From contig NC_087084.1 of NCBI RefSeq assembly GCF_026151205.1, forward strand, positions 11,373,453-11,437,452: a stretch of 64,000 bases of DNA, read 5' to 3'. Positions 9,473 to 51,399 of the stretch are shown piece after piece. The stretch comes from Bolinopsis microptera (Eukaryota; Ctenophora; Tentaculata; Lobata; Bolinopsidae). The first letter of the stretch is position 1. Each line of letters begins with the position of its first letter. The notes beneath the pieces were generated by a model. That model worked only from the letters and a program-made list of their open reading frames with translations. It was not told where the DNA came from and made no database searches. Both the position numbers and the translations under genes were made by a program.

Positions 9473-9866
9473 CATCAGCCACAAATCTGGTACCCGTTTC
9501 GGGGCTTTAATCGCAGGACGGTTCTGTACCAGGCGCCCCAGCAGTTTGATCTTAGACCACTTTCTGACTAGGCAAACACTTGAAGTAACCTGTTAGACCT
9601 CGCAATTGACGACGAGATAACGTTATGGTTCTTCTAGCTGTTAGTGTTCCCTAAGTTCCTACCTTCCTAAACTCCCATTCCATTTTCCTCGACAACAAAT
9701 GAATTCATCTGGAGCAGTGGGCCGCTTCTCTACCACTCTCCCTAACCAACAACTTGAACTCCCTTCCTCCAAACCCTATCCTCCTAGCAGCTCCCTCAAA
9801 ACTACGACCAACTATCCCTCTAGCTCCCACTTCCACAGCGAAACTGAAACAAGACCATCCGTTGCT

Positions 9867-11632: not shown

Positions 11633-11847
11633 ATTGCTCCAAAGTGTTCAGTGCACCCACGCACTCCGGGTACTCCTCGTTTGCAATTACTACGATTAGC
11701 TTTCATTTAGCATAAGCTAACTAATGGATCTGATGGTGATTGATAGTTGATAGTTGATGCTGATCAAGCTGCTGATACGGGATATCGTATGCGTTTTGTA
11801 ACATTGTTGTGACGCAGCGCTTATATTAGAGTATTAGCGAAACTCGA

Positions 11848-12397
11848 AAGGAGGAGCCAAACATAAAAAATTTGCAGGAGCTACGGAAGCTAAGGGTTAA
11901 AGGGTTGGTATGCACTTGGTCTGAATAAAAAGCCTGCAACCGGTTGAATGAAGGCCGTTACAGGGCGACCGTACCGTAAATTTAATATTAAGCGCCAGAA
12001 AAACGAGCATCAGTATAAAGTTAAAACACAACTGAAACAAAATATGAAATAATTAATATCATGTGCTTGTTCCTCAGAACGAGCACAAGTAAGCCATCAA
12101 AGGATAACTATGGAATACTAATGACAAAATCATATTAGATTAGTACCGATGAACAATGAACTTGGTCAACAGAAATATATCTCACGTTTTTAAAATCGCA
12201 GGAAAGCGAATAAACAATCGTGACATTAGACATGGCTGAGAATATGCTAATAATATCAACGTGATATCTGCGAGCGTGCTAGGGGTGAAAGACACTAGTA
12301 ATCACACCAGAACCAACCAAACACCACACCAATCAAACTCCCAAACCAGCTACTCTCTCACCAAACATCTCTCCCTCACCGGAACTTTCATCGGAAT
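11848..12397. repeat. Right LTR-like direct repeat
   Basis: This is the second copy of the block at 8902-9472, in the same orientation, about 550 bp, with a short internal deletion relative to the left copy. It lies on the 5' side of the minus-strand reverse-transcriptase remnant. The spacing and shared orientation favour an element with direct terminal repeats over two independent insertions. Confidence 0.75.
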
Positions 12398-27052: not shown

Positions 27053-30000
27053 TTATAGAGCAAGGGTGTTCCTGGCACAAACGGTGCACTTAGCAACTCC
27101 TTGGTCAAGGATGTCGTCAAGACCGCTGTACACGTTACCCATACCCCACATACCGGGTTGGCTAGTGTCGGGGTTCTGGGCCAGCCAGTAGTCCAAGTTG
27201 TTAATATAATAAGCGCAAGTACCTCGTCCGAGACACTCAATGAAGGTTGGCAGGTAGAAGTTCTCCAGACAGGAACCAGATGAGGCGAGGTCTTGGCCTC
27301 CACCGGATACACCGGATGAGGTAACCTGCAGGTTTTATTTCTCTTAGACAGATCAAAACACAAGAACCAAAGTTAAAAGTAGGAGAAAGCGAATAAATAA
27401 CAGCCAGGAAGCAAAGAAATCCAAACTAAAGGGTAATCAATATATTGTGTAATTCTGACTTACCATGACATAAGAATACCCTTCCCACAGTGGGCTGAAA
27501 TCTTCAGGACACTCAGGAGCGACGTCGGTGAAAGAATGTCTGGCGAGGATATACTGAGTACCGAGGCAGACAGTACACCTTGAAATGTGTGGCACGATCT
27601 CGTCAATGCTGGTCATGGGCTTGATAGTATAGTCAGCCTCGGCGTCGACTGCCAGCCAGAAAGATTTGTCAGTTCGGACACCGTGTCTGCACACATCAGA
27701 GCTTGAGCACTGCATGAAAGGCACAAGCTGGAACTCCTCCAAGCAAGACCCTGAGAATGTTTGATTTAATCAAAAGAAAAAAGAAAAAAAGCAAGTTAAC
27801 TACTTTTATGACCAATCCCTAGTCAATCCCTGGCTGAAAAGTTTTGAAAATTATATACGTAGATAAGAAAAAATTAAAATTTTATGTCTTACCAGCACTT
27901 CCTAGATCTTGGGAAAGTCCGTAGCCATTGCCTTCGAAGAATACAAGAGAGAATCCGGACCATAGAGGTTCGAAGTCAGTTGGGCATTCTGGTTGCTGAA
28001 ACAAAAATCTATAGAACTAGAAGACAAAAGTGTAGGAAAAAAAGATTTTATGTTTTTGGTTTTCTAAATCAATGTGCATGCAAATGCAATTTCTAAAAAT
28101 GTCATGTTACAAAATTAACATATAAATTACCTCAGTGGTCTGAGAGTGCTTAACGAGGACGTGAGTGTCGCAGTTACAAGGGGTGTAGTCGTCAGGCTGG
28201 CAATCTCCATCTGGTCCTTTGTCTCCCTTGTCACCATCAATACCTGGCTCTCCCTTTTCTCCTTGGATTCCAGCGAGTCCTTTAAGTCCAGTTTCTCCCT
28301 TGACACCTTTGTCTCCCTTGTCTCCATCCTCTCCTGGTGCACCAGTATCACCCTTAGCTCCCTGTGCTCCCTGTGCTCCATCTTCTCCGGGAGGACCTTG
28401 ACTACCGGGGGTACCATCTGCTCCTGGGTTACCGTCCTCTCCTGGGGTACCAGGGCTTCCGTTAGCTCCTGGTTCTCCCTTGCCACCCTTAGCTCCTTCA
28501 GGTCCCTGAAAAGCATGTCTGTTAGTCAACGACATTAGCAGAAAAGCATAATTGTTACTCAAATGGTTCTAATCCCAAAATAAAACTTATGATCAAAACG
28601 TATGAGACAGTAAGTGGAAAAAACAAACCTGTGGGCCTGAATCTCCCTTATCACCAAATTCACTGTTTTCGAGAACAGTGTTGATGATCTCAATCCAGAT
28701 GTAGTACTCAGGTGGAATGGGTGCTCCACTCTCGGCTTTGATGACGAAGAGGTTGCCATCAATACCTGGACCTCCTTTGTCTCCCTGGTCTCCTTTGTCT
28801 CCGTCCACACCCTAAAATTGAAAATATGTTCAATCTGTTACAGTATATATAAATAAAATAATATAATCAACTGCTGCACATGCTCAATTATAAATCGTAA
28901 GTTCATTGTGCGAAAGAGCATGTAGTCGTTAAATGATATAACTTACGGGTTCTCCTTTAGTTCCATCGATCCCAGAATCACCCTTTTCTCCTACGGCGCC
29001 AGAATCACCCTTATCTCCTTTGTTTCCTTCTGGTCCTTCTGGTCCATCATCACCCTTAGCACCTTGGTCTCCCTTTTCACCCTTCGATCCAGTTTCACCT
29101 TGTGCTCCTTGATCTCCATCCTCTCCTACAGATCCTTGTTCACCAACATCACCGACACCTCCATCACTACCGGGGGATCCATTCTCACCTGAACACATTT
29201 TGTCAGGTTAAAACTATTAAGGGATCCAGCACGGAATTGTTTGGTCAATTGGAGTATTGTTATCTAAAAATATATCGGAATGGTAAGATAAACTTTGCGT
29301 ACCTGGTTCACCAACTCCAGCCTCTCCCTTTTGACCCTGTGCACCATCTGATCCATTTGGTCCTTGTTCTCCTTCTGGGCCAGTTGCTCCATCTGGGCCT
29401 GGAAGACCTTTAGCACCAGCATCACCCTGTTCACCAGGCTGGCCAGTCTCTCCTTGATCTCCTACTGGACCCTTGTCTCCCTGTTCTCCACGGGCACCTT
29501 TTGCACCTGAGTCTCCATCAACTCCAACGTCTCCAAGATCTCCAGGTGCACCCTAAAAAGTTCTTTATTAAACAAAAATTTTTTGGTCAGTATGCTGTAT
29601 ATGACAAGGCTGTGATTCATTCATCATAGGGAATTATAATGTCCACAAGCGAACTTAAGGTGTAGTAACATACCTTATCACCACTACAAGCTTCTTGATT
29701 GGCATCAACACCAGGGGCTCCCTTCCGTCCATCCTGTCCACTAACTCCAGTGAAACCTTTCTCTCCTAGAACTCCTGTAATGTGCATTTGCTAAGCAAAG
29801 CGTTTGAGGTCGATTTAATTAATTGCTTATAACTTTTCATCTCTACTGATAATGATTTTAAAAATTTGATGCGCGACGAAATGAAAACGAACCTTTTGGT
29901 CCCTGTGGTCCGTCGGGTCCCTCATCACCCTCGTCCCCTTTGTCTCCTTGCTCGCCAGTGTCTCCTTGAGATCCTTGATCTCCTGCTGGTCCCACTTGTC

Positions 30001-33000
30001 CATCGTTTCCGCTTTCTCCGATTGGACCTTGATCACCTTGTACACCTACATCGCCCTGGTCACCCTGTTCACCCTTTAGTCCATTGTTTCCACTTTCTCC
30101 GATTAGACCAGCATCTCCTGGCTCTCCTACCTCTCCTTGGGCACCATCAGCACCGTCGACACCATTTTCTCCGGCAGCTCCAGTTTCACCCTAAACAAGC
30201 GATAATTAAGCATTGAACAAATACTAGCAACAGATATTGTGTAACTATAATAGCAATATGCACAATGCTTATCCTTTCCCTAAAAGAGCTATATGTGACA
30301 TAACTGTCACATTTTGTTGGAATAAGGTCCACAGATCAATACTTTTGGGGCATATGCTTACATAATCAAGATTATCGTTTTGTTAATTTTGTGACTAGTA
30401 AAATAAATAATAAACATAAATTTAACGATTTCATGAGCGCACCTTGGGTCCATTTGGGCCAGCTTCTCCTTGGTCTCCCTTGACTGAAAGTCCCTCAGCT
30501 CCGGCCACACCTTCAAGACCCTTAGCACCATCTTCTCCTGGTACTCCCTGGTCTCCCTGAATACCGGTGATTCCAGATGGACCTTCTCCTCCTTTGACTC
30601 CATCTAAACCTCTTGGTCCTTGACTACCTTTGTCTCCTAAAAAAATACAAACTGTAAAACGAAGAATATCACATTTTTAAGGTTTTTTAAAACGTAATTA
30701 ATTATTGTGTAATTTTGCATCAAATATATTATATTTAAAGATGGTGAAACTGATGTTATCCAACTTATTTTTCACGGATTACTTAGAGATTTAGGAGCAT
30801 AGCAGCAGATGATTTTACAAAATAGCAAGTATACAAATGTACAGCAAATCGAACAAACATATAGAATGGGCCGAAATGTATAAATGCTAAAAAGCGTGGG
30901 TCAGTAAAACAAGTACAGAGGACAAATTTTAGAACAGGAGTTTTTGGCCGCCCAAAGTCTCAATAACATCACATCCACCTAGATTGATATCCATAACCAA
31001 TAAATACGTCATAAAACCAACAGCTGGCTTGTGAAGCACTAGCGAGGTGTTATTTCTCAGATAAAATCAAAATCCATTTTTAACTACAAACCTTTTTCTC
31101 CATTATCTCCAACTGGTCCTTGCACTCCCTTGGCGCCAGCATTACCATCTGGTCCAAGTGGTCCCTGTGCTCCAGCTTCTCCTTGAGGTCCTTGAGGTCC
31201 TTGTTCTCCTTGAGGTCCTTGGTCTCCATCGGCTCCATCGGCTCCATCCTTACCTTGTAACAATATAGGGGTTGTTCGATGACTAAATCGATGCAATCAT
31301 ATAAAAAGAGTCACATTTATTTATCGGCGATTGTAATAAATTAAAGACTATTTACGTTTCCGTTTGCCTGTATATCATCAAAAATTAATATTTTTGACGC
31401 CTACCTGGTTCGCCTTGGTTTCCAACATCTCCTTGGTCACCATCCTGTCCAGGTGCACCTTGGTCACCCTGAATACCTTGATCTCCCACATCACCATCTT
31501 CTCCATTTTCTCCGGGGACACCACTATCACCCTGATCACCTTGTTCGCCCTTAGGTCCCTGATCGCCAACATCTCCATCAGGTCCTTGATCACCTTGATC
31601 TCCATCAGGTCCATTTTGACCAGGTTCGCCAGGCACACCAGGTTCTCCTGCCTCGCCCTACAAACGGTCAATCTTTTTATCGTTATATATTTAATCGGCA
31701 ATGTAGTAATTTTTAGCAGTTTCGTGTACCGTCGTTAACAATATAAATTATGTACTTTGGGTTTCTCAAATCAGTATTGTCAATAACTTACGGTTGCTCC
31801 CTTTTCTCCGGGAATGCTTTCTCCTGATTCACCCTGGTCTCCTTGATCTCCAGTAAGACCCTGTGGTCCCTGAGGCCCTGAAGGTCCTACCTCACCAGTG
31901 ATACCTTGCTCACCAGGGTTTCCTTCTAGACCATCTACACCAGGCTCACCAGGCTCTCCTCTGACACCTAGAAAGGTTGGGAATGTTATATTAACAGGTG
32001 ATTGTATTTGTACTTTTATACAAATTTATATTATCTGTAATCAGACTAAATCTTCTAGTTAAACACACTATTTAGAAGATATTATGGTTTTGGAATGAAC
32101 TTGCCTTTAAGTCCGGGGGGTCCAGCTTGGCCAGGTGTTCCATCTTGTCCAGAAGCACCAGGTTCTCCGGCTTCTCCGGTGGCTCCCTGATCTCCTACAT
32201 CTCCTACTGCTCCTTGGTCACCTTGGGCTCCTTTTGGTCCTTGAGGGCCATCAGCACCATTATCACCGTCTGAACCAGCATCACCATCAACGCCATTATC
32301 ACCATCAAGCCCTGATGCACCTTTTTCTCCAGTTTCGCCCTGGTCACCTTCATCTCCCGCAGCTCCCTTTTCTCCTACGGCACCAATTTCTCCCTTATCT
32401 CCCTTCATTCCGTTTCCTCCTGGTAATCCATCGCCACCATTCTCACCTTGTTCTCCAACCTCACCGTCTGGTCCATCTGGTCCTTTGTCACCTTGTGCCC
32501 CTTGTTCACCAACAGCACCATCTGCACCAGGGTTACCATCTACACCGTTATTACCGTCAGATCCTGCGTCACCCTTGGGTCCAGTTGCTCCTTGATCACC
32601 CTTTTCTCCAGCATCACCCTCAGGTCCTTGGACTCCCTTGTCTCCATCAACACCAGGGACACCTGCTGCTCCTACGGGTCCATCAATACCAGTATCTCCC
32701 TGAGCTCCCTTTGCTCCAGTAATTCCGGGAGGTCCAGCATTTCCTTCAACACCCTTGTCTCCATCTGGTCCAACGGCACCTTCTTGACCTGGTTCTCCCT
32801 TCGCTCCAGCATTTCCATTGTCACCGTTATCTCCGGGGTTACCAGGGGTACCATCATTACCGTTATCTCCAGGGTTACCAGCATCTCCTTTTTCACCTCT
32901 CACTCCATCATCACCCTTTTGTCCAGTGATTCCTTCGGGTCCTAGATATTGAAATGTTATCATTTACTGTACCTATTTGTTATAAATTTATTTGTTTCCA

Positions 33001-36000
33001 TGATTTAACCGTTGTAAGTGGAATCACCGTTAAAAAGAAAACGTATAAGTAAGGTTTACCTTGAACACCAACTTCTCCAACAACTCCATCTTCACCAGGC
33101 TCTCCTTGATCACCTTGTACCCCATCTTCACCATTGGCACCATCGTTTCCGGGTACTCCATTTTGCCCAGCTTCACCAGTGGCTCCAATTTCGCCAGGTT
33201 CTCCAGCAGCACCTGGGTCTCCGTTTGCACCGTCGTTACCATTAATTCCGGGGGTACCTGGCGCACCAGTGGCTCCAACAGCACCATCTTCACCTAGTAA
33301 TAAATAAATGTTAGTTTACCATCACAGTAGTACCTTCTTTCGTTTAGTATTTCCCAGCATATTAACAGTTTTAGGCAGTTCGTGCCAAACATCTCTGTGG
33401 AAAGAGAGCCGTAAATTTCGTAAATTTCTATTACTGAAACGGTAACATCAAGAGATCCATGCCCTCTACCAAACAGCATTAAAAGCAATTGTACCTGGTT
33501 GTCCTTGAGGTCCTGCTTCACCATCCTCGCCCTTGATGCCGGGCTGTCCATTTATTCCGGTCATACCATCAGCTCCAGGCTCTCCCTTTATGGCTACACC
33601 ATCAGCTCCAGACTCTCCTGGAATGCCTTGATCGCCAACTTCTCCCTGTTCCCCAATATCCCCCTTTGCTCCCTGGACGGAATCGCCAGCGGGACCTGGT
33701 TCTCCAACGGCACCATCAGCACCATTGTCTCCGTTTTCTCCTCGGGGACCTGATGGAAGGGTGGTTTCAGAATACAAATTTATCGTAAAATTCTTTTAGC
33801 TGACAATTGTCAAAGTATTTGTACAATACTTACAGTAGATGCTAGTATCATTTATGATTGATTTTAAAATCAAACTCTGACTTGTGAATAATAAAAATAC
33901 CTGAATCTCCGACCGCTCCTTGAGGACCGACGTCACCTTGGGCTCCCTTGATACCATTGATTCCGGATGGACCATCTGGTCCTTTGTCTCCGGATTCTCC
34001 CTGAGGACCCTCCTCTCCGTCGTCTCCATCGGCTCCATCTTCTCCAGCCTCACCTTGAGCTCCCTGTTCTCCTTGCGCTCCCTTAGCACCGGCATCACCA
34101 GTTTCTCCTGTAGGTAGCAAAAGTCAATTTTAGCTTTTTGTTAACAATATTCACTTCAATTAGAAAAATTTCTCGGACAATAAATGTCACTTTAAAGTGT
34201 TTCGATTTTGACCTCGGGTGATGCTTGAGAGGTAATAACCCGCCAAGAACACATATTTTATGATAAAGATGTTTGGCTATTGGTGAATTTATAGAAAATA
34301 AATGTACCTTGAGCTCCTTGGTCTCCTTGGTCTCCCTGAATTCCTTTTACGTCGATGACTCGGTTTTCTCCGGCACTACCCTTTTTTCCGTCAGTTCCAG
34401 ACTCACCATCTTTACCATCTTTACCAGCGGCACCATCATCTCCCCCTTCGCCAATCAGACCGGGCTCTCCAATAGCACCTTGATCTCCGGGTTCACCAAC
34501 TGGTCCCTTTTCTCCTTGTGGACCACGGTCGCCACCAATCCCTGAAGGACCTTGCACTCCTTGATCGCCTTCGTCACCAACAGCTCCTTGTTCACCGTCT
34601 GGTCCTGGCTCTCCCTCGGCACCGTCTGGACCAGCTACTCCTGGATCACCAACAGCGCCTGTTTCACCTTGGGGTCCAGTTTCTCCTTTGGCACCATCGT
34701 CTCCGGGGAAACTTTCGCCAGAAATTCCTTGAGGTCCAGCGTCTCCCTTCTGTCCTGCAGCTCCATCATCTCCATTATCACCATCAGCTCCAGGAGCGCC
34801 TGGGATACCAGATTCACCTACAACTCCTTGTTCTCCATCCTCACCCTGGGGTCCTTGATCTCCCTCTGCTCCCTTGGTACCGGGGACGCCTACTTGACCG
34901 GGTTCTCCGTTAAGTCCAGGTTCTCCAGGTTCTCCAGTTTCTCCCTGAGAGACGAACATTTTGAATAAAGCTGTTTGCTTGATATAAATTAGTTAACCAG
35001 TCGTACTGTGAAAATACCTAACGAATTAATCATTTTAGAGAATTATTTTGTGAACTCACCTTATCACCAGTGGTTCCAGGGTTTCCGTCAAGTCCAGGTG
35101 CTCCAGGTTCTCCTTGGTCACCTTCTTGTACCTCACCAGCAGGTCCAGTATCTCCTTTGAGTCCTTGTTCTCCAGGGTTTCCGTCCTCTCCGGGTTCACC
35201 CTAGAGTTTCAGCTGTTAGTCAAGTGAAATTTCCAAGTGAAATCGTGCGATAATGTAGTATACAGTATATAATGATGATGTGATTGGTGAATCGTTACTT
35301 TAGTTTGCAGTTGATGATTTCTTGAATAAGATTGTTTTTGTTTTTTTTAATCAACAATTTTTACTCACAGGTTCACCAGTTGGTCCGATGGGGCCAGCTT
35401 CTCCTTTTTCTCCATCAGTACCATTGCAACCGTCCACACCAGGAGTTCCGTCAGCACCATCAACACCGTCAGCACCGTCCTGTCCAGGAGGTCCTGGGGG
35501 TCCTTGAGCTCCGGGTTCACCCTGAAGTACATTACATCGTTAATTTGCGAAAATACGAAACTGGGGTCAAGCAATAACAAGTGCAAATCATTTGATCGAT
35601 AATAATTCTTAGATCTATCATATGATTTTACTTACACGGAAACCTTTCACTCCAACGATACCAGGGTTGCCGGCTTCTCCTTTTGGGCCAGGGGGTCCAG
35701 GTTGTCCATTTTCACCAACGGCACCAGGTGGTCCAGCGGGGCCATTTGGACCCATGGGACCTTGGATACCTTGAGGACCAGCTCTACCTGAAACAATAAT
35801 CGATTAATTTCTTGTACGATATAATTTTACGGACTCTAAATTTGGACGATGCCATGATTTTAATTAAAAAATTCACATTGCGTATTTACTTCAAACATTA
35901 GAAACGAACCTTTTATGAATGTTGTTGGTCTAGAACAGCAAGAAGCGGGGTCGGGACCGGCTTCAGCCCAAGCATCGGCTTCAGCATCAGCCTTAACACA

Positions 36001-36054
36001 CGCTACGAGGAACGCACAGAGGAGGACTACTCCAAGGAATTTTCGAGATGCCAT
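27053..36054 (-). CDS. Collagen IV-type chain, gene B (22 exons, 1885 aa)
   Basis: This encodes a secreted basement-membrane collagen. Exons: 35910-36054, 35636-35787, 35369-35521, 35060-35200, 34308-34944, 33901-34107, 33495-33749, 33060-33293, 32105-32941, 31792-31967, 31405-31657, 31092-31253, 30443-30636, 29893-30190, 29674-29774, 29303-29552, 28947-29188, 28629-28811, 28131-28505, 27893-27995, 27464-27750, 27053-27325. The total is 5658 nt and phases agree throughout. The signal peptide is about 1-22, then a short acidic spacer and CC at 39-40. The Gly-X-Y helix spans about 49-1640 and is rich in Asp, Glu and Gln. It includes GCNGT in exon 3, a cysteine-containing break in exon 15 and a non-collagenous insert in exon 18. 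NC1 (about 1641-1885) carries [30 protein letters not shown] and [10 protein letters not shown]. Intron 9 uses a GC donor. It is a tandem duplicate of gene D. Confidence 0.92.
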
Positions 36055-36697: not shown

Positions 36698-39600
36698 CTA
36701 GACGGTATTTCTGGCACAGACTGTGCATCTAGCGACTCCTTGGTCAAGGATGTCGTCAAGACCACTGTACACGTTACCCATACCCCACATACCGGGTTGG
36801 CTAATATCGGGGTTCTGGGCTAGCCAGTAGTCCAAGTTGTTGATGTAGTATGCGCAAGTACCTCGTCCGAGACACTCAATGAAGGTTGGCAGGTAGAAGT
36901 TCTCCAGGCAGGAGCCGGAAGAAGCAAGGTCCTGACCACCACCAGATGTGCCAGATGAAGTTACCTGGGTGAAGTATTTTGTTATCAGTCCAACACAAGG
37001 TTGTGGTTTTCGTGGAACAATGTGGTGACCAAAATATTTAATCAAGCAAAACAAATATGCGAAAGGAAGAAAACTAACCATGAGATATGAGTAGCCGGTC
37101 CAAAGTTCGTGGAAGTTATTTGGACAATCAGGGGCTGTGTCTTTGAAGGAATGTCTTGCGAGGACGTATTTGGTTCCAACACAGACTCGGCACCTTGAAA
37201 TATGTGGCACAATCTCGTCAATGCTTGTCATGGGTTTGACGGTGAAGTCAGCCTCGGCGTCAACAGCCAGCCAGAAAGATTTGTCAGTTCGGACACCGTG
37301 TCTGCACACATCAGAGCTTGAGCACTGCATGAAAGGCATCAGTTGGAACTCCTCGAGGCAAGATCCTGAAAGTGTTCAATTTTAAGAACGAAGTTTGCAA
37401 ACTAAAAAGTGCAGGCAATAATCATTGATTGTAGATATTTACGATTTGCTTGAGATTCAACCACGGTTTTAACATGCTTACCGGCGCTTCCAAGATCTTG
37501 TGAGAGTCCGTAGCCGTTGCCTTCGAAGAACACAAGAGAGAATCCAGACCACAGAGATTCGTAATCTGTAGGACATTCTGGGGCCTGAATGATATGTTTT
37601 TAAAAACCACTGTCCATGGTAGTAAATACCAAACATGTGCAACGAAACCCTCAGAAATTGACAATTGAAGAAACTAAACAAATTTATTATTTGTCATTCT
37701 TACTTCGGTAGTTTGAGAATGTCTGACGACGGTATGTGTGTCACAGTTACAAGGATGGTACTCATCAGGTTCACACACTCCCTCAGGACCCTTTTGTCCC
37801 TTAGATCCATCATCTCCTTGTTGTCCCTTTTGTCCCTTGATTCCAGCAAGACCCTTTTGACCAGGTTCACCGGCCTCTCCTAAAATTAACCAAAGTTAAA
37901 GATTGTATCATTGGCTCATCACCAAAGGGAGAAATTAAGAAATTCAAATTTCTACTGTTTCTATACACGAATAATATTGTAGTTTTAAAACGTTAAATCA
38001 TGCTGCGGTACGAACCTGAGGGTCCATTATCGCCATCGTTTCCAGGAGCTCCAGTTTCTCCCTTAGCTCCAGTTGCACCGTCATCTCCATCTCGGCCGGG
38101 AATTCCATCAACTCCATTCTCAGCGGGGTTTCCATCTACACCGTTGATGCCGTTAGCTCCATCGCTTCCAGGAATACCGGGTTCTCCCTTTATTCCTTGT
38201 TGTCCAGCAGGTCCCTAGTGAAACCAGACTATTAAAACAAATGTTTTCTTATTTAAATGTTTGGCAAAGGTGTAGACATGAGTTTTGTAGACATGACGGT
38301 AGACATCATTTAAGATCTCAATATGAATAACATATCATTTTAAGGTACGATTTTCTTTATCAACTTACTTCTAATCCACGTTCTCCTTTTTCGGCCAGCT
38401 GAGTGTAGTTCAACACTTCGCTAATAAGATTGACCCAAACAACGAATTCTTTAGTTTGTCCACCGGTTTCGGGATCGACAACAATAAGGATGTTTCCGTC
38501 TTCTCCCCAATCTCCAACGACACCCTTCTGTCCTCTGGGTCCTGGTGCACCCTGGCAAAATAAAGCCGTCACCATCAAAACGGATTAACATGTTATGAAA
38601 AATTGTAAATGACTCAGAATATTAGAATCATAACCACAGGAGAATTTGATTGCTTTTTCACACGATTTATTTGTAATTGACATCACAACTTACAGCATCT
38701 CCCTTTTCTCCGTCGGCACCGGCTTCTCCTTTAGCGCCTGCGTCTCCACCGACTCCCTGTTCTCCTTGAGGTCCTTGAGGTCCAAGAGGTCCTTGAACAC
38801 CCTTGGCTCCAGCATCTCCCTGTGCGCCCTGTTCACCAACGTTTCCTTGGTCTCCAATTGGGCCCTTTTCACCTTGTCGGCCTGGTTCTCCAGCAGCTCC
38901 CTTTTCACCATCAATTCCATCAATACCAAGGTTACCTTTGAAAAACAGGCACCATTAGAAATTGACCCCTTGTTTGAATTCCAATTGTGCAATTATACAA
39001 AAGCACAATGAGCAGCGTTATAAAGCATTGGTTGGAGTTTCAAATTTAATAAGAGACAAAAATAACTTACCTTGGGTTCCGACACCAGCTTCTCCCTTTT
39101 GTCCAACCTCTCCGTCAGCACCAGGCTCTCCAACTGCTCCTTGTGGTCCATCAACTCCAGATTCTCCAGCCTTTCCATCCTGTCCTGTTGCTCCTTGCAT
39201 ACCGGGTTCTCCATCATCTCCCTGTTCGCCTTGAGGTCCAGAAACTCCCTTGTCTCCTACGGCACCTGCTTCACCAGTATCACCAGAATCTCCCTCGGCT
39301 CCTAATGGGCCTTGTTCACCCTGTTAATTAGATAATTAGGTAATGGAAACATGTAACTTTTAGGTAGATATTAAACTGACACTCATATTTTTGTTGGCGG
39401 AGAATTTGCTTACCGTTTTTAAAGATACTACTATACCTGCTGCTTTCATATACTAATTACTGCTGATTTCACGTGCTAATTAATAATTACACTAATTACA
39501 CTAAAATGGAAGGGACTCGATACGGCTCTAGCTCCAATTTAAATTTTGGTGTGATCATACTCAGTATGAAGGAATTTTCTGAGATACAGTAAATTTAGTG

Positions 39601-42600
39601 GAAGCTACAAAACTAACCGGTTCGCCACGGCAGGCTTGTGGTTTTGCACTTTCACCGACAGGACCATCATTCCCATTAGCCCCGGCTACTCCTTCGAATC
39701 CCCTGATCCCTTGCTCTCCTGAAGAAAGATCAAGCTGTGAATTTACTATCTTACGTTTAAAAAATATTACAATTACTCGTTATGTATCCGGATTTGGACA
39801 ATGAGGTATGTCAGGAACTAATAACTGAAACTTACTAAACCTTAAAACCTGACTAAAAATAGATAAAACGTACTGAAACTAATTAAACAGAATAACCGAA
39901 ACTTACCGGGAATACCGACTGGTCCTTCAATTCCTTCAATGCCCTGAATGCCCTTAGCTCCCTGTAGTCCTTTTGCGCCTTGGTCTCCAGCGTCTCCTTG
40001 CTCACCATCAGCTCCATCATTACCAGGCTCTCCCTTGGATCCACTAGCACCTTTTTCTCCTTCAACTCCTTGGTCTCCTTCGTCTCCATTTTCGCCATCA
40101 GGACCAGTCTCACCTTGAGCTCCGGCTTCTCCGTTAGGTCCTTGTTCTCCTTGGGCTCCAGCGTCTCCGTCGGTTCCTGGTTGTCCCTTAGCACCAGCTT
40201 CTCCCTGAAATAACACGTTTAATACCTCTATGATGCTACCTTGGTTAGATTGATTGGAACTTCTGAGAAAACAGAAACCTTTTAGTTGACAGTGTTCCTA
40301 GTATCATAATGTTCTAGAATAAAGTCCTGAATACTAACGAGCTATAAACATGTTAGTAACTCTAACAACCTTGTAAAACAATGATACATTATAAAGTAAA
40401 CACGCTACCTGTTCGCCCGGTTCTCCGGTGGATCCAGGTTCTCCCTTGGATTCGTGGCCATCTGGACCTTCATCACCCTCTTCTCCATCGGCACCAGCAT
40501 CACCAGGGTCTCCAACTGCACCCTTAGCTCCCTTGAAACCAGTAGATCCGGGGAATCCGTTCATACCATTTTCTCCTGGTGGACCTTCTTCTCCTTGTTC
40601 ACCTGGCCGAACGTTTTAATTCAAAAATCACATACGTGCAGCCTATAGAAATGGCTTTTAAGTGAATACCTTAAAGTATATAGTGAACACGAGGGATGAA
40701 ACACACAGCAGGAATAATGGCAGTCAGAGCGGTGATATATTGTTTTAATACTTTCAGCACTACTATATAACAAATAATTTGAGGAAACCATGTAAATTGT
40801 AACCAATTTTAATGCTGTCATGGGGTGGCAAGTACCCATACATCGTGGTCCGGTAGTTTCATTGCGTCATAATATAGTAATATGACTCTTACCCTTGGCT
40901 CCAGCCTCTCCGGATGAGCCTTGTGCTCCATCGTCTCCATCTGGGCCTTGCTCTCCCACAGCTCCTTGATCTCCAGTTGGACCCTGGGGTCCTTGTGCTC
41001 CAATATCACCAGGTTCTCCTACTGCACCCTTTGCTGCATTTTCACCATCGTCTCCTGAAGGAGATATCTGGTTATCAAAAGTAAAAATATAATAAAAATA
41101 TATGCGCCCGACATTTTATTGATCATAGTTTTTATACAATTTTTTATCTTTTACCTAGTAATTTAATTGGTTGTCCAACTAACTGTTTTCCACTCGAGAC
41201 GATGATCGAAAACATCATGAAACATTTTTGAAATTTTCAAATAATTTCCTACTAACCATCAGGTCCCTGAGCACCCTGGGGTCCAAGAGGTCCCTTATCA
41301 CCCTCAGCTCCTTCATCACCCTGAGGTCCCTGGGCTCCTTTGTCTCCATTGCTTCCGGGTTCTCCTTGATCTCCTTGGTCTCCTTGGTCTCCGACAGATC
41401 CAGGATTACCAATTTGTCCCTTTTCTCCTTGATCTCCATCAGGTCCGTTATCTCCTTCACCACCGTCTTCACCAGGGTTACCAGCTTCTCCTTGAGCTCC
41501 TTGGTCGCCCTGAACAAGACCAGTTGGGTAAATATTTATAATAGGAACTGAGTGAGTTCGGACAGATAGAATTTAAAAGTAGACAGGAAATTAAAGTAGC
41601 TGAATTGAAAACGAAGACACTTCACGTACCCACACTCACAGACGGCTGGCTTCTCAATAGCACAAATTGTTTACATTCTTTATTCTTTTTGTGACGCAGG
41701 CAAATTTGTTTATTGCGCGGTTCGCGGTGCTCGTAAATGAAATGGAATAGACTGACACTTTTAAAAGTTACTGTAAGATAACTTACCGCGCTATAAAATA
41801 ATTAAGTTTATTGTAAAAGAACGAAGTTTGCAAACTAAAAAGTGAAGCCAATCATCATTGTACGTAGATTAGGTTCCAATTTACGATTTGCTTGAGATTC
41901 AACCGCAGCTTGTTTATTGTAAGTTTATTGTAAAAGATTTGTGACAGCATTTTAAAATATGTGATGTTGACAAAAGTTTCAAACTCTTTGATGGACGATT
42001 CCCTTTTAGTAGGCTTTTTTCACATTTTGGACCATACAATATATAATTAAACAATACACACGCTCACCGCACACTCCTAACATTATTTAGCTATTTAATT
42101 TAGTTATGTAGCTAATTTAATTCACAATCATTGAATATAATGATTGTTTTTGTATTGGTCAGCACTCAGCATAATAAGGTTTAAAATCGAATTTGCTTCG
42201 GCGTTCAACATATAATTGATACTTTTACAAATGCATAATATATTTGTTAGCTTCTTCCAGTCAGTGATTTTTGTAAAGCATGATTCGAAGTAAAAAAGTT
42301 AACCAAAAGCAGGACTGAAAAAGTCTCCGTCAAATTTTTTCTCAGAAAATTCAAAAGGTTCAAGAATTCAAACGTACAGGATACTTATTTACGTTTTATG
42401 TAATTTTTGAACTGATGGGACTGTTTACGACATTTTGCAGAAGCATTAAAATTTCACTTTTTGTAAAACAATTTATTCAAATAAAAACTTTATAAGTAAA
42501 AGTTATGATACAATTCATTTAGAAAATGAAATCAATTACTACAATAATCAATGATCTAACCATGTTTTCAAACAGCCAATTCATCAAATAAATTACAAAA

Positions 42601-45600
42601 TTAATGGATTTCGTTACTCATTATCCAATATCCACGTTATCCTGCCCCATAACCCTCAGCACCTCATATGTTAGTCACCGCCCAGATTTTTTGCCGTCGA
42701 TAGAAACCGATTTAACGTTAAGAAGGGAGTCAGGATTAATATCAGGTTATGATTATAAGTTAGGTAAAATGCTAGGATTGTTGTAACAGAAAGAGATTAT
42801 GGTGGAGTTATTTGGGCAGGACAGTGTTAACCCATGGCTATTAGTATTACCTTGATTCATCTATAAATGTAGTTATACAAAGTTGTACTATCAACAACTT
42901 TATTTTAACAACAAATAATTACAACGTACTCCACAGTGACATTGCATTTGAAGGATCGCATACGATTGTTACCTAAAAACATCCTAAACCCAATGTACGT
43001 CCCCAGCTATACAATAATACAAAAATAATGTATTCGAAATATTGCAAATATTCCGAACAGTTGGATTATTCCAGTTTTCAAAGTTACAATGATCCTGACT
43101 CGTTACGATTGTTGAACCCTATTTTAACAGTAGTTTTGATCTAGAGGAACCTTTTCTTTCGCGATGGTAGTTTCTTGGCGCACACTGCACATCTCGAAAG
43201 GCCCTCATTCTGAATTTCGTCCAGTCCGTTGTAAATCCTTCCCATGCCAAACATTCCTGGAATAGGATCCTTCTTGGCAGCGAGCCAGTAATCGAGGTTG
43301 TTAACATAATAGGAGCACATACCCCTCCCAACACACTCTATAAAGGATGGAAGGAAGAAGTTCTCCATACAACTGCCAACAGATCCCAGGTCCTGTCCTC
43401 CTCCCACACCACCACCTCCAGTTACCATCAGGTAACTGTACCCGGCCCAAAGTCGCTCCCAGTTGGCGGGGCACTCTGGGATCTCGTTACTGTAGCTGTG
43501 ACGAGCCATGGAGTATTGGGTCCCAGAGCAGACAGCACATCTACTGATGTACGGTAGGATATCCTCCTCTGTCTTCAGGGGAGCCATGGCTTTTATGTCG
43601 TCCTGACCGTTGGTAGTCAGCCAGAATGACTTGTCCGTTCTAGAGCCATGCTGGCACACGTTTCGGGAGCCACACTGCAAGAAGGGCATCACTTGGAACT
43701 CCTCCATGCAACTGCCAACTCCTCCCAGATCCTGGTTCAAGCCGTAGCCTTGGGATTCGAAGTACACTAAACTATAGCCGCTGTAGAGCTCGACCCAGTT
43801 GGGAGGACAGGATGGTACCCGGTCAGTTTGGGAGTGCCTGGCTATGATATGGGTGTCACACGTGCATGGGAACTCCTGGAACCCACAATCACCACCACAG
43901 GACCCCGTTCCTCCTGGCTTGCCGTCTCTCCCACCCTCTCCTTTCTGTCCCTTAGACCCGTCAATACCTGATCTTCCTGAGGCTCCCTTCATACCAGGTA
44001 GACCGTAGTTACCAGGATTACCAGGATTACCTTGCTTTCCATCTCTTCCTAGCTGGCCGGCTTGTCCAGCGTCTCCCTGGATACCCTGTTTTCCTTCCGG
44101 ACCTTGAGGTCCAACACGTCCCTGAGGTCCAGCGGGTCCCATTTCACCCTTTTCACCCCTAGCACCTTTTATACGCTCACCAGCCGCAGCACCGTCACCT
44201 CCTCCACCATCGCCTTTTCTCACTCCGATGAAAGGATCTTCAGTAGGAGAGGTATCACAAGTAGCCGGACACATACCAGGCTCCCCTTTGTCTCCAAAGC
44301 CTCCTTTCATTCCGGCTGGTCCAGGCAGTCCAATTGGTCCAATTTGACCCATTTGACCCTTTTGTCCCTGAAAAATCGTTAGTCAATGTAAATGTGCTTG
44401 GTTTGCAACTAATTTAAGGTTTGTAGAAGACGTTGATTTGTAAAAAAGGAAGCTTCAAAAGCACGAAGTAGACTATCTGGAAAGATAGAAAAGTCGCAAA
44501 GACGAGTTCGTACCGGAAGACCATTGATACCGTCCACTCCAGGAGCACCATTTGCTCCATCTCTACCAGGATACCCATCGTTGCCGGCATCTCCATCCCG
44601 GCCGTTTCTTCCTGGATCACCTTTAGTTCCGATCTCACCAGCTTTACCCTTACTACCAGGCGTTCCTGGAAGTCCTTGTCGGCCTACTCCGTCTTTTCCG
44701 CCTTCTCCTTTATATCCTCGAGGTCCTAGACTTCCCTTTTGTCCTTTAATTCCAGGTTGACCCGGCAATCCCTAAAAACCGGTCAGGAATTTATTTAATT
44801 GGCATTGTAAGAAGAAACTAAGTTATCTGATCAAAGTTTTCATTCAGTTCTAAGAAATATAATGTCATGGAACGTGTCTATATTTTCTAAAAGAGAAATA
44901 TAACGAAAACTATAATGTACTTACCACTTTTCCCTCAGGACCTTCAGCGCCATCCGCACCTGGAAGACCTCCTTGTCCAGGATTCCCATCACTCCCAGGG
45001 TCACCAACCTCTCCAAGACTTCCCTTTTCACCTCTAAGACCAGCTTTACCCATTTCTCCTTTCTCTCCCTGTGCACCAGGAGGTCCTATAACACCGGGCC
45101 CTTCGCTACCTCCTGGAGACCCACGTTCTCCCTTGATACCTTTGAGACCCTGAATACCGGGGAACCCGGGCACACCTGCCTCTCCTTTTCGTCCTCCAGG
45201 CCCATCTTTTCCGTCATTACCCTGCTGTCCTGGAGCTCCTTGTTGTCCGAGACTTCCAGTAGGTCCACGAGGTCCGGGTTGTCCGGGACTACCATTTTGT
45301 CCATTCCGTCCATCCGCACCTGGATATCCCCTTTCTCCATCAACACCGCCATCACCTTTTGTTCCTTTAGCTCCTGGGACACCGGGAAATCCTGGGTTCC
45401 CCTTCATGCCAATGTCTCCTCGAGCACCCTTAGACCCAAGTGCACCGTTACTACCGTCTTTGCCGTTAGACCCAGTTAAACCCTGAGGTCCAGGTTGCCC
45501 CGGATTTCCTGGTGGACCAGTTATGCTCTGGCCCGGTAAACCATTTGATCCTTCAGATCCACGATCTCCCTTTGCACCAGCTCGACCATCTTGTCCTCCT

Positions 45601-48600
45601 ATTCCTTTTGGACCCGGAATTCCCGGGATTCCCTGAGGTCCCACGTCACCAGGGGTGCCGTCTTTTCCAGAGGCTCCGGTTGCTCCGTTTACTCCATTCA
45701 AACCTTGACCTCCTTTCATACCAGGATCTCCTTTTTGCCCCTGTGGTCCAGCTGCCCCACTACCACCAGTGTCTCCCTTTCGACCGTTAGCTCCGGCTTT
45801 TCCATCATTTCCTGGGATTCCAGGTCTACCAGGTTCACCTCCAAGTCCCTTCATTCCCGGTATTCCTGTTAACCCGTTCTCTCCTTTTTTACCAGAGGAA
45901 CCGTCCATTCCTCGTGGGCCTTGAAGACCCTGGGTCCCATCAGATCCACTATCTCCTTTTTGTCCTTTACCGCCGATGGCTCCTTTTAGCCCATCAGTTC
46001 CTGGTTCTCCAGGGACACCACGAGGACCAGGGATGAACACTTCATTCTCTTTCACGTTGCGTCCAGGGACACCCGGTTCACCCTGCAAGTTCAAACACAT
46101 GAGTCGTAGCTTGGTTAATATCTAAGCTGTGCTTCAAAGAAAGTCCCCGCAAGTGATGCTGCTCACACAGTAACAAAATAACATAACGAATATCATGTCA
46201 GTTAAGTTACTGACGAAATTCATCCACAAAAGTAGCGTATCATGATACGAAACATTTTCGAAACAAGAACACGAAACAAACGAAATTCAGCTACATTGGT
46301 AACCTATCAAACAAAATTCAGCTACATTGGTAGCCTATCAAACGAATTCAGCTACAGTGGTAGCCTATCAAACGAAATTCGGCTAAATTGGTAGCTTATC
46401 AAACGAGTTCAGCTACAGTGGTAGCTTATAAAACAAATTCAGCTACATTGGTAGCCTATCAAACGAAATTCAGCTACATTGGTAGCCTATCAAACGAATT
46501 CAGCTACATTGGTAACCTATCAAACGAATTCAGCTACATTGGTAACCTATCAAACGAAATTCAGCTACATTGGAAGCCTATCAAACTATTTCAGCTACAT
46601 TGGTAGCCGATAAAATAAAAATATTTGCAGTGATAGCCTATCAAATGATATTCGGCTATATAGGCAGCTTTTTTGTATATCTAAGAAATTTTTGCTGTCA
46701 AATGCCCATACATGTATTAAAAGCTGCTAATCTACGAAAAAATCTTATTCTAAAATAATTCTTTGACGCACTCAGACTTATTCAGTATTCACGGCACTCA
46801 GTATACTGACAATAAGTTAAAATGCTTCACGTAAAACCAACAAACGAATAGGGAGCATTTAAAACACGACCGAAACTTACAGTGGCGCCCTGTTCTCCCT
46901 TGATGCTTTCGCCGGCTTCTCCTTTTTCTCCTTGGTCTCCTTGAGGTCCCTGGGGACCTTCAGGTCCCTCGGGTCCCTGTTCTCCTTGGGGTCCTTGGTC
47001 TCCTGGGGCACCATCAGCTCCGTTTTGTCCAGGCTGACCTGATTCTCCTTGACCACCTGAAAAGATTAATCATTAGATATCAAGCTTTTAAATAAACTGC
47101 ACTGTAAGTATCGACATTGTCAATCAAAATGTTTCGACGTGTTCATGACTTCAAAAAAAACTTTATCAATGGTCTTAAAGCAAAAAAACAAAACTTATGA
47201 TAATTCAGTACATCAATAACACACCTTTTCCTCCGGGAACTCCGGGAAGTCCCTCAGCTCCTTCCTGACCAGGTTCTCCAGGCTCACCAGTCTGTCCAAC
47301 CTCTCCGGATTCACCAATGTCTCCTTTTTCTCCAGTGGGACCTTGGGGACCTTGTTCTCCTGGACTACCGTCCTGTCCTGGCACACCATTGGAACCTGGG
47401 TTTCCATTTTCTCCATTCTTGCCACTCTCACCGGTGGGTCCTTGGTCTCCTTCATCACCAGCATCTCCCTTGGCTCCTTGTTCTCCAACATCTCCGTTAT
47501 TACCTGCGTCTCCTTGAGGTCCCTTGGAACCTGGAGTTCCTGGTAAACCATCTTGTCCAGAATCTCCCTGAATTCCCGCGGGTCCTTGAGCTCCTTGAGG
47601 TCCTTGGTCTCCCTTTTGTCCAATTTCACCAACATCTCCGTTGGCTCCATCGTTACCGTTTTGTCCATCAGATCCGGGGTTTCCAGCGTCTCCCTTAGGT
47701 CCCTCCTCACCAACAGCTCCTTGATCTCCCTTAAGTCCTTGAGGTCCCTCATCTCCGTCGACACCATTTAATCCGGGGACACCAGCATCACCTTCAGGTC
47801 CATCTTCTCCATTGGCTCCTTGTGCACCCTTATCTCCAGGAGCACCAGGGGGTCCGTTGTTTCCGCTCATGCCTACTTCTCCTTTGGGTCCTTCAGCACC
47901 GTCTTGACCGACTTCTCCCTTGGCACCATCCTCACCAGATGCACCATCGGTTCCATCAACACCGTTATCTCCATCAACACCGTTTTCGCCATCACTACCA
48001 GTCTCTCCTTTGTCTCCTGCTTCTCCTTGGTTTCCCTTGGCTCCAGCAACTCCGGGAAGACCTACAAAAATGCAACATTGTTTTATCTGCGCATAAATTC
48101 AGATACAGAACCATCTTAAATCGAATGATAAACTGGAAAGCGATAACAACTTAAATTGGTTAAATTACAAAGGCAATTATACTTAAAGAATACTGAACGT
48201 CAATATTTATTAACCTTCAAGTCCTTGATCTCCCTTTTGTCCCTGATCTCCTGCAGGTCCCTCGGGTCCTTTTAAGCCATCAGCACCATCGTTACCGTCT
48301 ACACCGTTAGCGCCATCAGCTCCAGGTTCACCTGTGGCTCCATTTTCTCCTTGTTCTCCCTTTGCTCCAGGATTTCCGTCACGGCCGTTAGCTCCATCTG
48401 AGCCGTTCTCACCTGGCTCACCAGTAGCTCCAACAGCACCGGCCTCACCTGAAAAAATACGTTAACAACTTTTCTTTCATAGTGTTTAAATTCAAGAAAA
48501 TACTTGGAAAGAAGCAAGAAAATGTATACTATCGCAAATATAAAATGAATTATTGCGGAGTTTAAAACATACCTTGTGCTCCTTCGTCACCGGGCACTCC

Positions 48601-51399
48601 ATTTTCACCGGGAGCTCCTTTAAGACCAGACACTCCTGGTAATCCAGGGGCACCTCCATCTCCTTTCACTGATGCACCGTCTTGTCCAACGGGACCTTGT
48701 TCTCCTTGCTCTCCTTGCTCTCCTACCTCTCCTTGATTTCCCTTGATTCCTTCGAGAGCATCTCCGGGAATACCAGGTTCTCCTTTGCTTCCATCAGCAC
48801 CGGGGTTACCGTTGGCACCGGGGTTACCTGTAAAGAGTAAATGTTTAGACATTGGGGTCGGCAAAGAACACCTAGATTTGAACGCAACAAAACTCAATTA
48901 GTGGCTGTATAGTATATTTTTGTGACTTCTTACCATCAGCTCCCTCAGGTCCCTCTGGGCCCTCTTCTCCCTTGGCGCCCTTCACTCCAGCGATTCCAGG
49001 CATGCCCTCTGATCCAGCCTCTCCCTTTTCTCCTTGGGCTCCTGCATCTCCAGGTACACCGTTAGCACCAGCAACACCCTTCTCACCGGCGTCTCCAGCC
49101 TCACCAGTTAATCCAACTGCTCCCTCTTCTCCCTTTTCGCCTGTTCACATTATCAGAATGACGTTTACGAATCGGAGTTTTTATTTCGATAATTAAATTT
49201 TAGATGAGCAGTGATCTGTAAAAATGTTTTGATAGAGTTTCATGTGATATGTTGGTAAAAGATGTAAGTCTGCCCTTATCTAAATAATAACGAATAGCAA
49301 CTCACCTTGAGCACCGACCTCTCCAATAACTCCTTTAGGTCCTTCGATGACGTCTAATCTGGTCTCACCAGGGTCACCCTTGGGTCCGTTCTCTCCAGGA
49401 CTACCAGGAGTTCCATCTTTACCATCATCTCCAGGCTCTCCAGTGTCTCCCTTATCACCAAGAGCTCCGGTAGCACCGGGATCTCCGATTTCTCCTTTAG
49501 GCCCTTGGTCTCCGGACGGTCCCCGTTCGCCTTCGTCACCTTGAGGTCCCTCAGGTCCTTCGGGTCCTTGATCACCTTTTTCTCCCTGGGCTCCAACATC
49601 ACCTTGGTCTCCTTCAACTCCCTTCAATCCAGAAGTACCAGGAATGCCAGTTTCTCCCTTTTGACCAGCTGCTCCGGGTTCTCCAGTGGCTCCATCGTTT
49701 CCAGGAACACCAACACCATCCTCGCCAGGCTCACCCTGCTCTCCAATGGCACCTTCAGCTCCATCTGCTCCAGGAATGCCAGGTGCTCCGTCGAGTCCAT
49801 TATCTCCCTGTTCTCCTTGTTCTCCCTGTTCTCCTTGAGGTCCCTGAGGTCCTGGTTCTCCAGAGGCTCCTTTAGCTCCGGCTACTCCAGGAAGACCATC
49901 ATCACCATCGTTTCCATTGTTACCAGCTTCTCCTTGGGCACCCTAAAATAAATTATTTTTACTCGTCACGATTATTTTGAAAAATTAATCTTAATGAATG
50001 ATCAAAGAACTTCTCAAGAAATCCTGAAATAGAATTTGCTCAAAGCTACCCTGGCGAGGTTAGTGAATTTTAGTTGTCCAGAGTTATGTATATTGTTTAG
50101 GCCAGAATAAAATATTATTGGATGAATTGTGACAGTTTTCTTGTATACCTTGGCACCAGGAGCTCCAGGCAAACCATCTTGACCAGGTTCACCAGGTTCA
50201 CCAGCATCACCATCGAGCACATTACCAGGTAGACCAGGTTCACCAGCGGGTCCTTGATCTCCAGGAGTTCCGTCTTGGCCGGGTTCTCCCTACAATGAAA
50301 CTTCATTAGTTTACTGTAAACTTAATATCAAAGTTTTAAAATTATTCGAACTTCCGCTCTAAAATGATGTTTACGTTCAGTTATGTTGTGAACGTTCACA
50401 AATAAAGCTTTTAACTTAAGATCATATTGACGTAAAAGCTCAAAAACTTGTGCTCACCTTAAGTCCGGTAGATCCAGGTTCACCATTAGCTCCGAGTTCT
50501 CCGTCGGTACCATTGCAACCATCGAGACCTGGAAGACCGTCTTGTCCATCAATACCGTCTTGTCCATCAGTTCCACGTGGTCCAGAAGGTCCTCGGCTGC
50601 CAGGTTCTCCCTAGGTATAAGGCATTATCATACGTGTACTTCACAATGCCTTAATTTTATCAACTTGGCTACTTTGTTATTCGTATGTTTAGTAGGCCTT
50701 TTAAACGATAAATTTACAACCAAGTTTCATTGCTAAATATCAACTAAAAGGTTGATTGCGGAATTATCGGGACCTTCAATCCTGGGCATTTAATCAAGAA
50801 AGAGGGTTTCTAAAAAAACATATTTAATGTATCAATCACTTACTCGGACTCCCTTCATTCCAGCAAGACCGGGGTTACCCCGTTCTCCCTTGGGTCCAGG
50901 TGGGCCATTATCTCCTTGAAGACCAGAGTTTCCGGGTGGACCAGCGGGGCCTTCGGGCCCTTCTGGACCTTGGACTCCCTGGGGACCTTGTCTACCTGAA
51001 GGGATTGGTAAGTTTTAGGAGGATTTGTAAACGTTTTCAAAATATTAAAATACATTCATAGTGATTGGTAAGTTATTTGTGGAATTTCAAGGCATAGGTA
51101 AGCGCTTGATATGGAACGAATAGCGGCCCAACACCCATACTAACGATAAAATTCTTAAAAGGGTATTCTTAAAAGGGTATAAAAGTATTTCTGTCATAAA
51201 TATTGACTTTTGATGTGTTTCACTGCTGAATAAGTCGATTATAATTACCTTTCACGAATGTTGTGGGTCTGGAACAGCAACCAGCGGGGTCAGCTTCAGG
51301 ATCAGCTTCAGCCTCAGCGTCGGCTTCTGCATCAGCTCTAACACACGCTACAAAGAACGCGTACAGGAGAACTACTCCAAGGAATTTTCGAGATGCCAT
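36698..51399 (-). CDS. Collagen IV-type chain, gene D (23 exons, 1885 aa), host of a nested gene
   Basis: This is a secreted basement-membrane collagen whose intron 10 contains another collagen gene. Exons: 51249-51399, 50844-50995, 50458-50610, 50149-50289, 49306-49942, 48934-49140, 48573-48827, 48215-48448, 47225-48061, 46881-47056, then 41257-41509, 40893-41054, 40409-40602, 39907-40204, 39618-39718, 39071-39320, 38694-38935, 38369-38551, 38016-38214, 37704-37879, 37482-37584, 37079-37365, 36698-36964. Exons 2-18 match gene B exons 2-18 base for base in length. The two exons at 38016-38214 and 37704-37879 together equal B exon 19 (375 nt). The total, 5658 nt, is the same as B. The signal peptide is about 1-22 and CC lies at 41-42. 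The helix is acidic with GCNGT in exon 3 and a helix cysteine (QACRGEP). NC1 ends ARNTV. Joining across the 5.4-kb intron 10 is inferred from colinearity with gene B, not from transcripts. Confidence 0.85.
37388..37472. repeat. Intronic segment of gene D duplicated at 41.8 kb
   Basis: The block AACGAAGTTTGCAAACTAAA through ATTTGCTTGAGATTCAACC lies in the NC1 intron between 37365 and 37584. It recurs at 41818-41914 inside host intron 10, with small indels. No coding part of the flanking NC1 exons accompanies the second copy. Confidence 0.8.
40819..40876. repeat. Dispersed intronic repeat, copy 2
   Basis: This is a near-identical copy of the block at 17684-17737 (CATGGGGTGGCAAGTACCCA and CATCGTGGTCCGGTAGTTTC). 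Here it lies in intron 12 of gene D, close to the donor of exon 12. Shared placement in collagen introns suggests either a small mobile or foldback element or an old paralogous intron remnant. Confidence 0.8.
41818..41914. repeat. Copy of the gene D NC1 intron segment inside intron 10
   Basis: This is the partner of 37388-37472 in the same orientation. It is about 300 bp from exon 11 of gene D and downstream of the nested gene, so it may mark a rearrangement boundary. Confidence 0.8.
42899..42904 (-). terminator. Candidate polyadenylation signal of the nested collagen gene
   Basis: AATAAA on the minus strand lies about 240 bp after the nested gene's stop codon at 43141. It would allow a separate 3' end inside the host intron. 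The sequence matches only the hexamer consensus. Confidence 0.35.
43141..46223 (-). CDS. Nested collagen IV-type gene in intron 10 of gene D (about 899 aa)
   Basis: The certain exons are 44925-46082, 44514-44771 and 43141-44367 (386, 86 and 409 codons including the stop), all phase 0. The helix is conventional: GPPG and GEKGE triplets, many Lys and Arg, and more proline than in genes B, C and D. It has a cysteine-containing break ([14 protein letters not shown]) and a Gly-rich loop early in the last exon. The whole NC1 domain (about the last 230 residues) lies in one exon, with [28 protein letters not shown] and [10 protein letters not shown], and a basic tail. A candidate first exon (46167-46223) encodes [19 protein letters not shown], which is signal-peptide-like, with a GTGAGC donor and an 84-bp intron of good phase; this exon is uncertain. 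Alternatively the first certain exon could splice from exon 10 of gene D, which is also phase 0. Confidence 0.82.
46286..46618. repeat. 30-31-bp satellite array in host intron 10
   Basis: About eleven tandem copies of TTCAGCTACATTGGTAGCCT followed by ATCAAACGAAA occur, alternating between 30 and 31 bp. The array lies between exon 10 of gene D (46881) and the candidate first exon of the nested gene (46223). The open plus-strand frame here is only the repeat translated. Confidence 0.9.

Follow-up and report, generated by a model that had tools for sequence, protein, structure and literature searches.

The stretch of Bolinopsis microptera DNA analysed here (the window) is 64,000 nucleotides long and spans positions 11373453–11437452 of contig C13; searches of the genome covered 264.65 Mb in 232 contigs. 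The minus strand carries every long Gly-X-Y frame of the window, and all genes and exons located below by window position lie on that strand. We are concerned with two of its collagen IV genes, B (27053–36054) and D (36698–51399), and with a further collagen IV block, N, that lies within intron 10 of D. D exons 1–10 and D exons 11–23, which flank this intron, are referred to as D5 and D3.

Gene D opens with an exon that carries the start codon, a signal peptide and a CCS motif (51249–51399). Exons 2–10 complete the N-terminal half (46881–50995; individually 50995–50844, 50610–50458, 50289–50149, 49942–49306, 49140–48934, 48827–48573, 48448–48215, 48061–47225 and 47056–46881), and exon 10 ends in phase 0 and glycine register 0 at a GTAAGT donor. 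Beyond an intron of 5371 bp, exons 11–23 (36698–41509) encode a 3′ half of 904 residues with its own NC1 domain and a TAG stop, followed after 231 and 407 nt by AATAAA signals. A preliminary description of this DNA had placed the D exons that match B exons 1–10 at 51399–46881 and the rest at 41509–36698, and had claimed that together they give a phase-consistent protein of B's length. Both statements are borne out: the 23 exons form one open frame of 981 codons (51399–46881) plus 904 (41509–36698), with a single, terminal stop, and the resulting 1885 codons equal those of B, our reference for exon structure (22 exons, 1885 aa, intron 10 of 134 bp). The exact agreement of exon lengths that was also claimed holds for exons 2–10 (152, 153, 141, 637, 207, 255, 234, 837 and 176 nt), exons 11–18 (253, 162, 194, 298, 101, 250, 242 and 183 nt) and two internal NC1 exons (103 and 287 nt), but not for the first exons (151/145 nt) and last exons (267/273 nt), which differ slightly, nor for B exon 19 (375 nt), which is split in D into exons 19 and 20 (199 + 176 nt).

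Identity at non-glycine positions was then compared half by half. Between D and B it is 24–45% in exons 5–10 and 11–38% in exons 11–18; exons 1–4 (41–85%) and the NC1 exons (83–95%) are more alike, which brings the totals over the exons compared to 35.5% (5′) and 47.4% (3′). Between D and the paralog C10_1 it is 33–47% in exons 7, 8 and 10 and 30–36% in exons 11–15 and 17, with totals over the recovered exons only of 46.4% (5′) and 46.5% (3′). Omitted from these comparisons were D exons 19–20 and their counterpart, B exon 19; from C10_1, the misplaced exon 6 and exons 1, 5, 9, 16, 19, 20 and 23, which had no model; and from C10_2, the misplaced exons 4, 11, 12 and 16 and those that were not recovered. 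Given matching exon lengths and similar identities on both sides, D5 and D3 behave as one gene, and the half-by-half comparison with B and C10_1 rules out their derivation from separate genes. The 176|253 nt exon boundary at which intron 10 interrupts D is also present in C10_1, C12 and C1. Our survey of intron 10 for a D-like architecture covered these three genes, B and C10_2; the intron measures 297 bp in C10_1, 129 bp in C12, 129 bp in C1 and 134 bp in B, and is likewise short in C10_2.

Block N, on the same strand as D, consists of three exons that encode 880 residues with no stop before the final TAG. Exon 1 (44925–46082; 1158 nt, phase 0 to 0) starts at a splice acceptor, opens directly with GEPG in phase 0 and glycine register 0, and is homologous at its start to the start of D exon 11. 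Exon 2 (44514–44771) measures 258 nt, and exon 3 (43141–44367; 1227 nt) contains the end of the triple helix, the whole NC1 domain and the stop. AATAAA signals follow at 42899–42904, 237 nt past the stop, and at 664 nt. A processed retrocopy would be expected to lack introns and to carry a poly(A) tract and a target-site duplication. As to the first two of these marks, which were looked at, N has two introns with fair splice sites, though far fewer than D3, and the stretch of 3′ flank that was read shows no long A tract. Pfam recognizes collagen repeats and a duplicated C4 domain in N, with PF01413 matching two stretches in each of N (222.5 bits) and D3 (212.3 bits), as in the NC1 domain of a collagen IV. 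All 14 cysteine columns of the D NC1 domain are retained, and N has the long, interrupted Gly-X-Y helix of the family.

The interruptions of that helix align N with D3. Counted from exon 11, they fall at residues 187, 327, 417 and 506 in N and 190, 327, 418 and 522 in D3, and three of the four pairs agree in kind, being respectively two additional residues, GVG and a stretch of 34 residues (31 in B); the pair at 327 is unlike in size, with three extra residues in N and seven in D and B. When one set was slid along the other from −300 to 300, at least three interruptions came within 3 residues of each other at 4 of 601 offsets, all of them between 0 and 3. Interruptions without a partner, at 10 in N and at 91 and 592 in D, lay outside this test. 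Because of the aligned interruptions we read N as homologous to D exons 11–23 from its first residue.

What N lacks is a front. The N-terminal marks CCS…P and xDGCNGT, both found in D, B and the C10 and C12 copies, are absent from 41510–46880. A degenerate DNA pattern for xDGCNGT occurs at 12 places in the genome, a lower bound since it misses C10_2 (TDGCNGT), and at none in the block; the reversed control gave no match. In the cluster at C13:11.33–11.43 Mb there are four xDGCNGT front halves and five NC1 back ends, a count that takes the pieces near 11345 and 11332 kb as one gene, as their complementary NC1 parts suggest. The signal peptide and 7S region of a collagen IV are present in D and B, are missing from N taken by itself, and would be present in a chain joining D5 to N. 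The open frames, splice sites, phase, glycine register and homology, and the missing 5′ half of N, are all read directly from the DNA. We therefore read N as the 3′ half of a collagen IV and not as a whole gene. The preliminary description had seen here a different, complete collagen IV gene nested within D; a same-strand collagen IV block with its own NC1 domain and stop there certainly is, but its completeness has to be given up because there is no N-terminal half, the block being three exons that begin at a splice acceptor, with neither N-terminal mark and no convincing start exon.

The sequence of exon 10 suggests where the missing half may come from. Whether joined to N (GEPG…) or to D exon 11 (GDQG…), exon 10 (…GEQGAT|) preserves both the frame and the triplet register, and the predicted chains are 1861 and 1885 aa long, respectively. 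A common donor thus faces two in-frame acceptors, each of which leads to a stop and a poly(A) signal, as in genes with alternative 3′ terminal exons. Models trained on the 42 introns of B and D score the exon 10 donor at 7.9 bits and the acceptors of N exon 1 and D exon 11 at 7.0 and 9.8 bits, all ordinary values; the N acceptor stands at the 33rd percentile of B and D acceptors, and between 46860 and 46083 no other reaches the 20th. Fusion of D exons 1–10 to the block had been called a naive reading. Since exon 10 joins both ends in frame and register, we instead consider this fusion, predicted to be of full length and to use the only acceptor of ordinary strength, the best-supported second transcript. 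The accompanying remark that D must skip the block in order to make a B-like chain is correct.

We propose that the D locus is a single transcription unit with one promoter, in which exons 1–10, encoding the signal peptide, the 7S region and about 930 residues of triple helix, would be shared by two mutually exclusive 3′ halves chosen at intron 10. Splicing of exon 10 to 46082, with polyadenylation near 42.9 kb, would yield the chain of 1861 aa, whose C-terminal half is neutral and whose NC1 domain is of the N type; splicing to 41509, skipping the block (5.4 kb), would yield the acidic 1885-aa D chain with a D-type NC1 domain. NC1 directs chain selection in collagen IV, so the choice of end would switch the trimers that the same N-terminal half enters. 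On balance we think that the locus is organized in this way, and rate it as reasonably probable; the use of both junctions, and the manner of choosing between them, we infer. Because N has no front half, two different basement-membrane collagens are probably products of one gene, according to the ending that it uses.

Several observations weigh against this proposal. Both exon 10 junctions are predictions from genomic sequence. Four of the first ten exons of D (2, 3, 4 and 10) end at register 0, so that an in-frame join is moderately likely by chance; the case consequently rests on the missing front half, the intact coding and the homologous start, and not on phase alone. The offset test used four positions per side that had been picked as common to B and D3. 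N is 31 residues shorter than D3 before NC1, and its introns, after residues 386 and 472, coincide by eye with no intron of D. The main oddity concerns charge: N is neutral (+1.1 net charges per 100 aa) and the two halves of D are strongly acidic (−13.8 and −14.0), so that a chain joining D5 to N would be a charge mosaic, which weighs somewhat. Finally, the 798 bp upstream of N do contain one weak phase-0 candidate for a signal-peptide exon, against 0.66 expected.

That candidate (46167–46223) bears on the main rival account, in which N is an independent gene nested in parallel, equipped with a promoter and signal exon of its own and encoding a short collagen IV-like chain that lacks the 7S region and first half of the helix. 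The candidate is an open, hydrophobic, phase-0 exon of 19 aa that lies 84 bp upstream of N exon 1, and N does lie wholly within one intron. Excerpts from the Hormiphora study (PMC8527503), which cites nested genes of fly and human, describe many nested genes in that ctenophore, commonly parallel and, like N, placed as a same-strand coding block in one host intron; ctenophore NC1-only genes with signal peptides are likewise on record in the collagen survey (PMC5395295). The candidate, however, is at chance level: it came from a scan that required an ATG, a hydrophobic stretch and an in-frame donor, with the expectation taken from 300 mononucleotide shuffles. The same scan gave one candidate before D exon 11 (42083–42024; 0.51 expected) and none in D introns 1–9. 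The donor of the candidate before N has a score of −2.8 bits, which 41 of the 42 real donors exceed, and no acceptor of ordinary strength precedes this candidate in the intron, unlike the AG before the ATG in B, D and the C10 copies. Furthermore, N begins at the homologous exon-11 boundary. The nested genes of Hormiphora, as far as the excerpts describe them, have their own transcripts; N has no convincing start, belongs to its host's own family and starts at a homologous exon boundary. We consider an autonomous N unlikely, though worth keeping in mind.

A second account, that N is an unexpressed relic, or a gene recently bereft of its 5′ half that D merely skips, draws on its lack of a front and its position within an intron of another gene. 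Against it stand 880 stop-free codons, acceptable splice sites, the poly(A) signal and the intact NC1 cysteines. Over the NC1 domain N and D differ by 0.39 nonsynonymous (dN) and 3.2, that is saturated, synonymous (dS) substitutions per site, and together with the open codons and the 14 of 14 cysteine columns this shows signs of constraint. N is also not a recent tandem duplicate of D exons 11–23: its NC1 identity is 58.8% to D, 57.4% to B, 57.4% to C10_1, 54.9% to C10_2, 50.4% to A and 43.0% to C12, compared with 88.9% between D and B and 81.3% between C10_1 and D. At sites where N and D differ, the outgroups A, C12 and C1 share the residue of D in 45, 39 and 41 cases and that of N in 8, 9 and 8, counts that, taken alone, would fit a fast-evolving N. 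Against solved vertebrate and fly NC1 domains, however, N scores at least as well as D, C10_2 and A (213.7, 206.3, 192.4 and 185.2 bits for 1m3d_C; 202.8, 194.8, 183.1 and 192.8 for 1m3d_A; 170.6, 165.3, 146.5 and 155.4 for 8tys_B), with queries of unequal length (251, 244, 234 and 231 aa). These scores disfavour fast evolution or decay and favour an old split; N is thus a distinct and probably old chain that would have separated early from the D/B group, a view that we favour but do not regard as proven. An NC1 tree was set aside for placing N because only 2 of its 12 inner branches were well supported and because it paired N, by a long branch (85/93), with the fragmentary row E. Altogether, a relic seems quite improbable.

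Slightly less credible still is a third account, in which N is trans-spliced to a 5′ half, either D exon 10 from a separate transcript or another collagen gene. Spliced-leader trans-splicing is widespread in ctenophores according to the excerpted Hormiphora study (PMC8527503), but a spliced leader alone supplies no signal peptide, and cis-splicing to the adjacent exon 10 is a simpler route to the same junction. Misplacement of the block into intron 10 during assembly is the least probable account of all and hardly credible: the intron does hold repeats, namely a minisatellite of about 11 units of 30 bp (46277–46658, 5′ of N) and an 88-bp two-copy sequence, but the window has no undetermined bases, and N exon 1, searched as protein, and the flanks 41510–43000 and 46083–46880, searched as DNA, are each matched over their full length at a single place in the genome, the runner-up to N exon 1 reaching 43% identity over repetitive collagen.

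We return to the proposed gene with one front and two alternative ends. In its fullest form the proposal is of a one-promoter collagen IV gene in which a splicing and polyadenylation switch would select between two divergent 3′ halves that differ in charge character, and would thereby select NC1 domain and trimers, the 3′ half of an older chain having been captured at a homologous intron boundary with loss of its front half. This fuller version we hold a little less firmly, while still placing it on the probable side.

Some further features of these loci were recorded. The 88-bp sequence was found at only two places in the genome search, 83% identical, at 37384–37462, where it makes up most of D intron 21 inside NC1, and at 41817–41904, in D intron 10 between N and exon 11. 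The donor of B exon 9 is of the GC type (GCAAGT, 32099–32105). A common leader resembling GGATGCGATAATAGGCCCTGAAGG, with 0–5 changes in 28 bases, immediately precedes the start codon in D, B and two paralogs on C10 (window 51423–51399 and 36078–36054; C10:11854679 and 11864851). In all four an AG precedes the leader, 24 nt before the ATG, and is likely to be a conserved splice acceptor, of a 5′ untranslated region intron or for spliced-leader trans-splicing. RNA folding of this start region gave nothing notable (z-scores −0.22 to 0.69). A bacterial-type promoter scan was set aside as not meaningful in an animal, and a plasmid search led nowhere.

Elsewhere in the genome, C10:11854679–11874125 contains two adjacent collagen IV genes. 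Judged by exon 2 and NC1, the first is closest to D and the second to B, which would fit a joint duplication of the D–B pair. At C13:4152000–4164000 there are two collagen IV-like genes in tandem, each with a single open frame (1746 and 1709 codons), and at two places the NC1 coding region is seemingly split by a long intron, of ∼6 kb at C1:1772836–1779053 and of ∼12 kb at C13:11333163–11345339. Within the window, a direct repeat at 8902–12397 (copies 8902–9472 and 11848–12397, 92% identical) flanks a 320-codon minus-strand frame, 10385–11344, that may be part of a mobile element.

Expansion of collagen IV and its tandem arrays in ctenophores are already published: the collagen survey, as excerpted (PMC5395295), gives Mnemiopsis 11 collagen IV genes, four on one scaffold and the others single or tandem. 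Those arrays resemble the present locus in their tandem same-strand genes and lineage-specific expansion; unlike it, they are described in these excerpts with neither a shared 5′ half nor a nested 3′ half (PMC5395295). For Bolinopsis, annotation of the genome is reported to have drawn on Iso-Seq reads (PMC10232365). A partial search of the literature on alternative collagen ends and nested genes turned up no collagen IV with two NC1-bearing 3′ halves, which does not establish their absence.

Alternative terminal exons are a known gene organization, of which the D locus, coding for a structural protein, would be a variant of unusual size. In the immunoglobulin mu and calcitonin/CGRP genes, which have alternative terminal exons and poly(A) sites, one 5′ part likewise serves an upstream terminal exon set that competes with a skip to a downstream one; there the tails are short, whereas the ends of the D locus are halves of 880 and 904 aa with divergent NC1 domains. 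The Drosophila genes mod(mdg4) and lola, in which common 5′ exons are combined with alternative 3′ exon sets, are similar in that the 3′ part sets specificity on shared 5′ exons, and differ in encoding transcription factors with many ends that are partly trans-spliced.

The composition of collagen IV trimers is normally set by which genes are expressed. If our proposal is true, choice of NC1 by splicing would link a single N-terminal contact with the scaffold to two options for the C-terminal partner. Counts of collagen IV in ctenophores, given as 4–20 per species from transcriptomes in the excerpted survey (PMC5395295), may then mix in genes with alternative ends. The locus would, moreover, show the 3′ half of a gene surviving as the guest of a relative.

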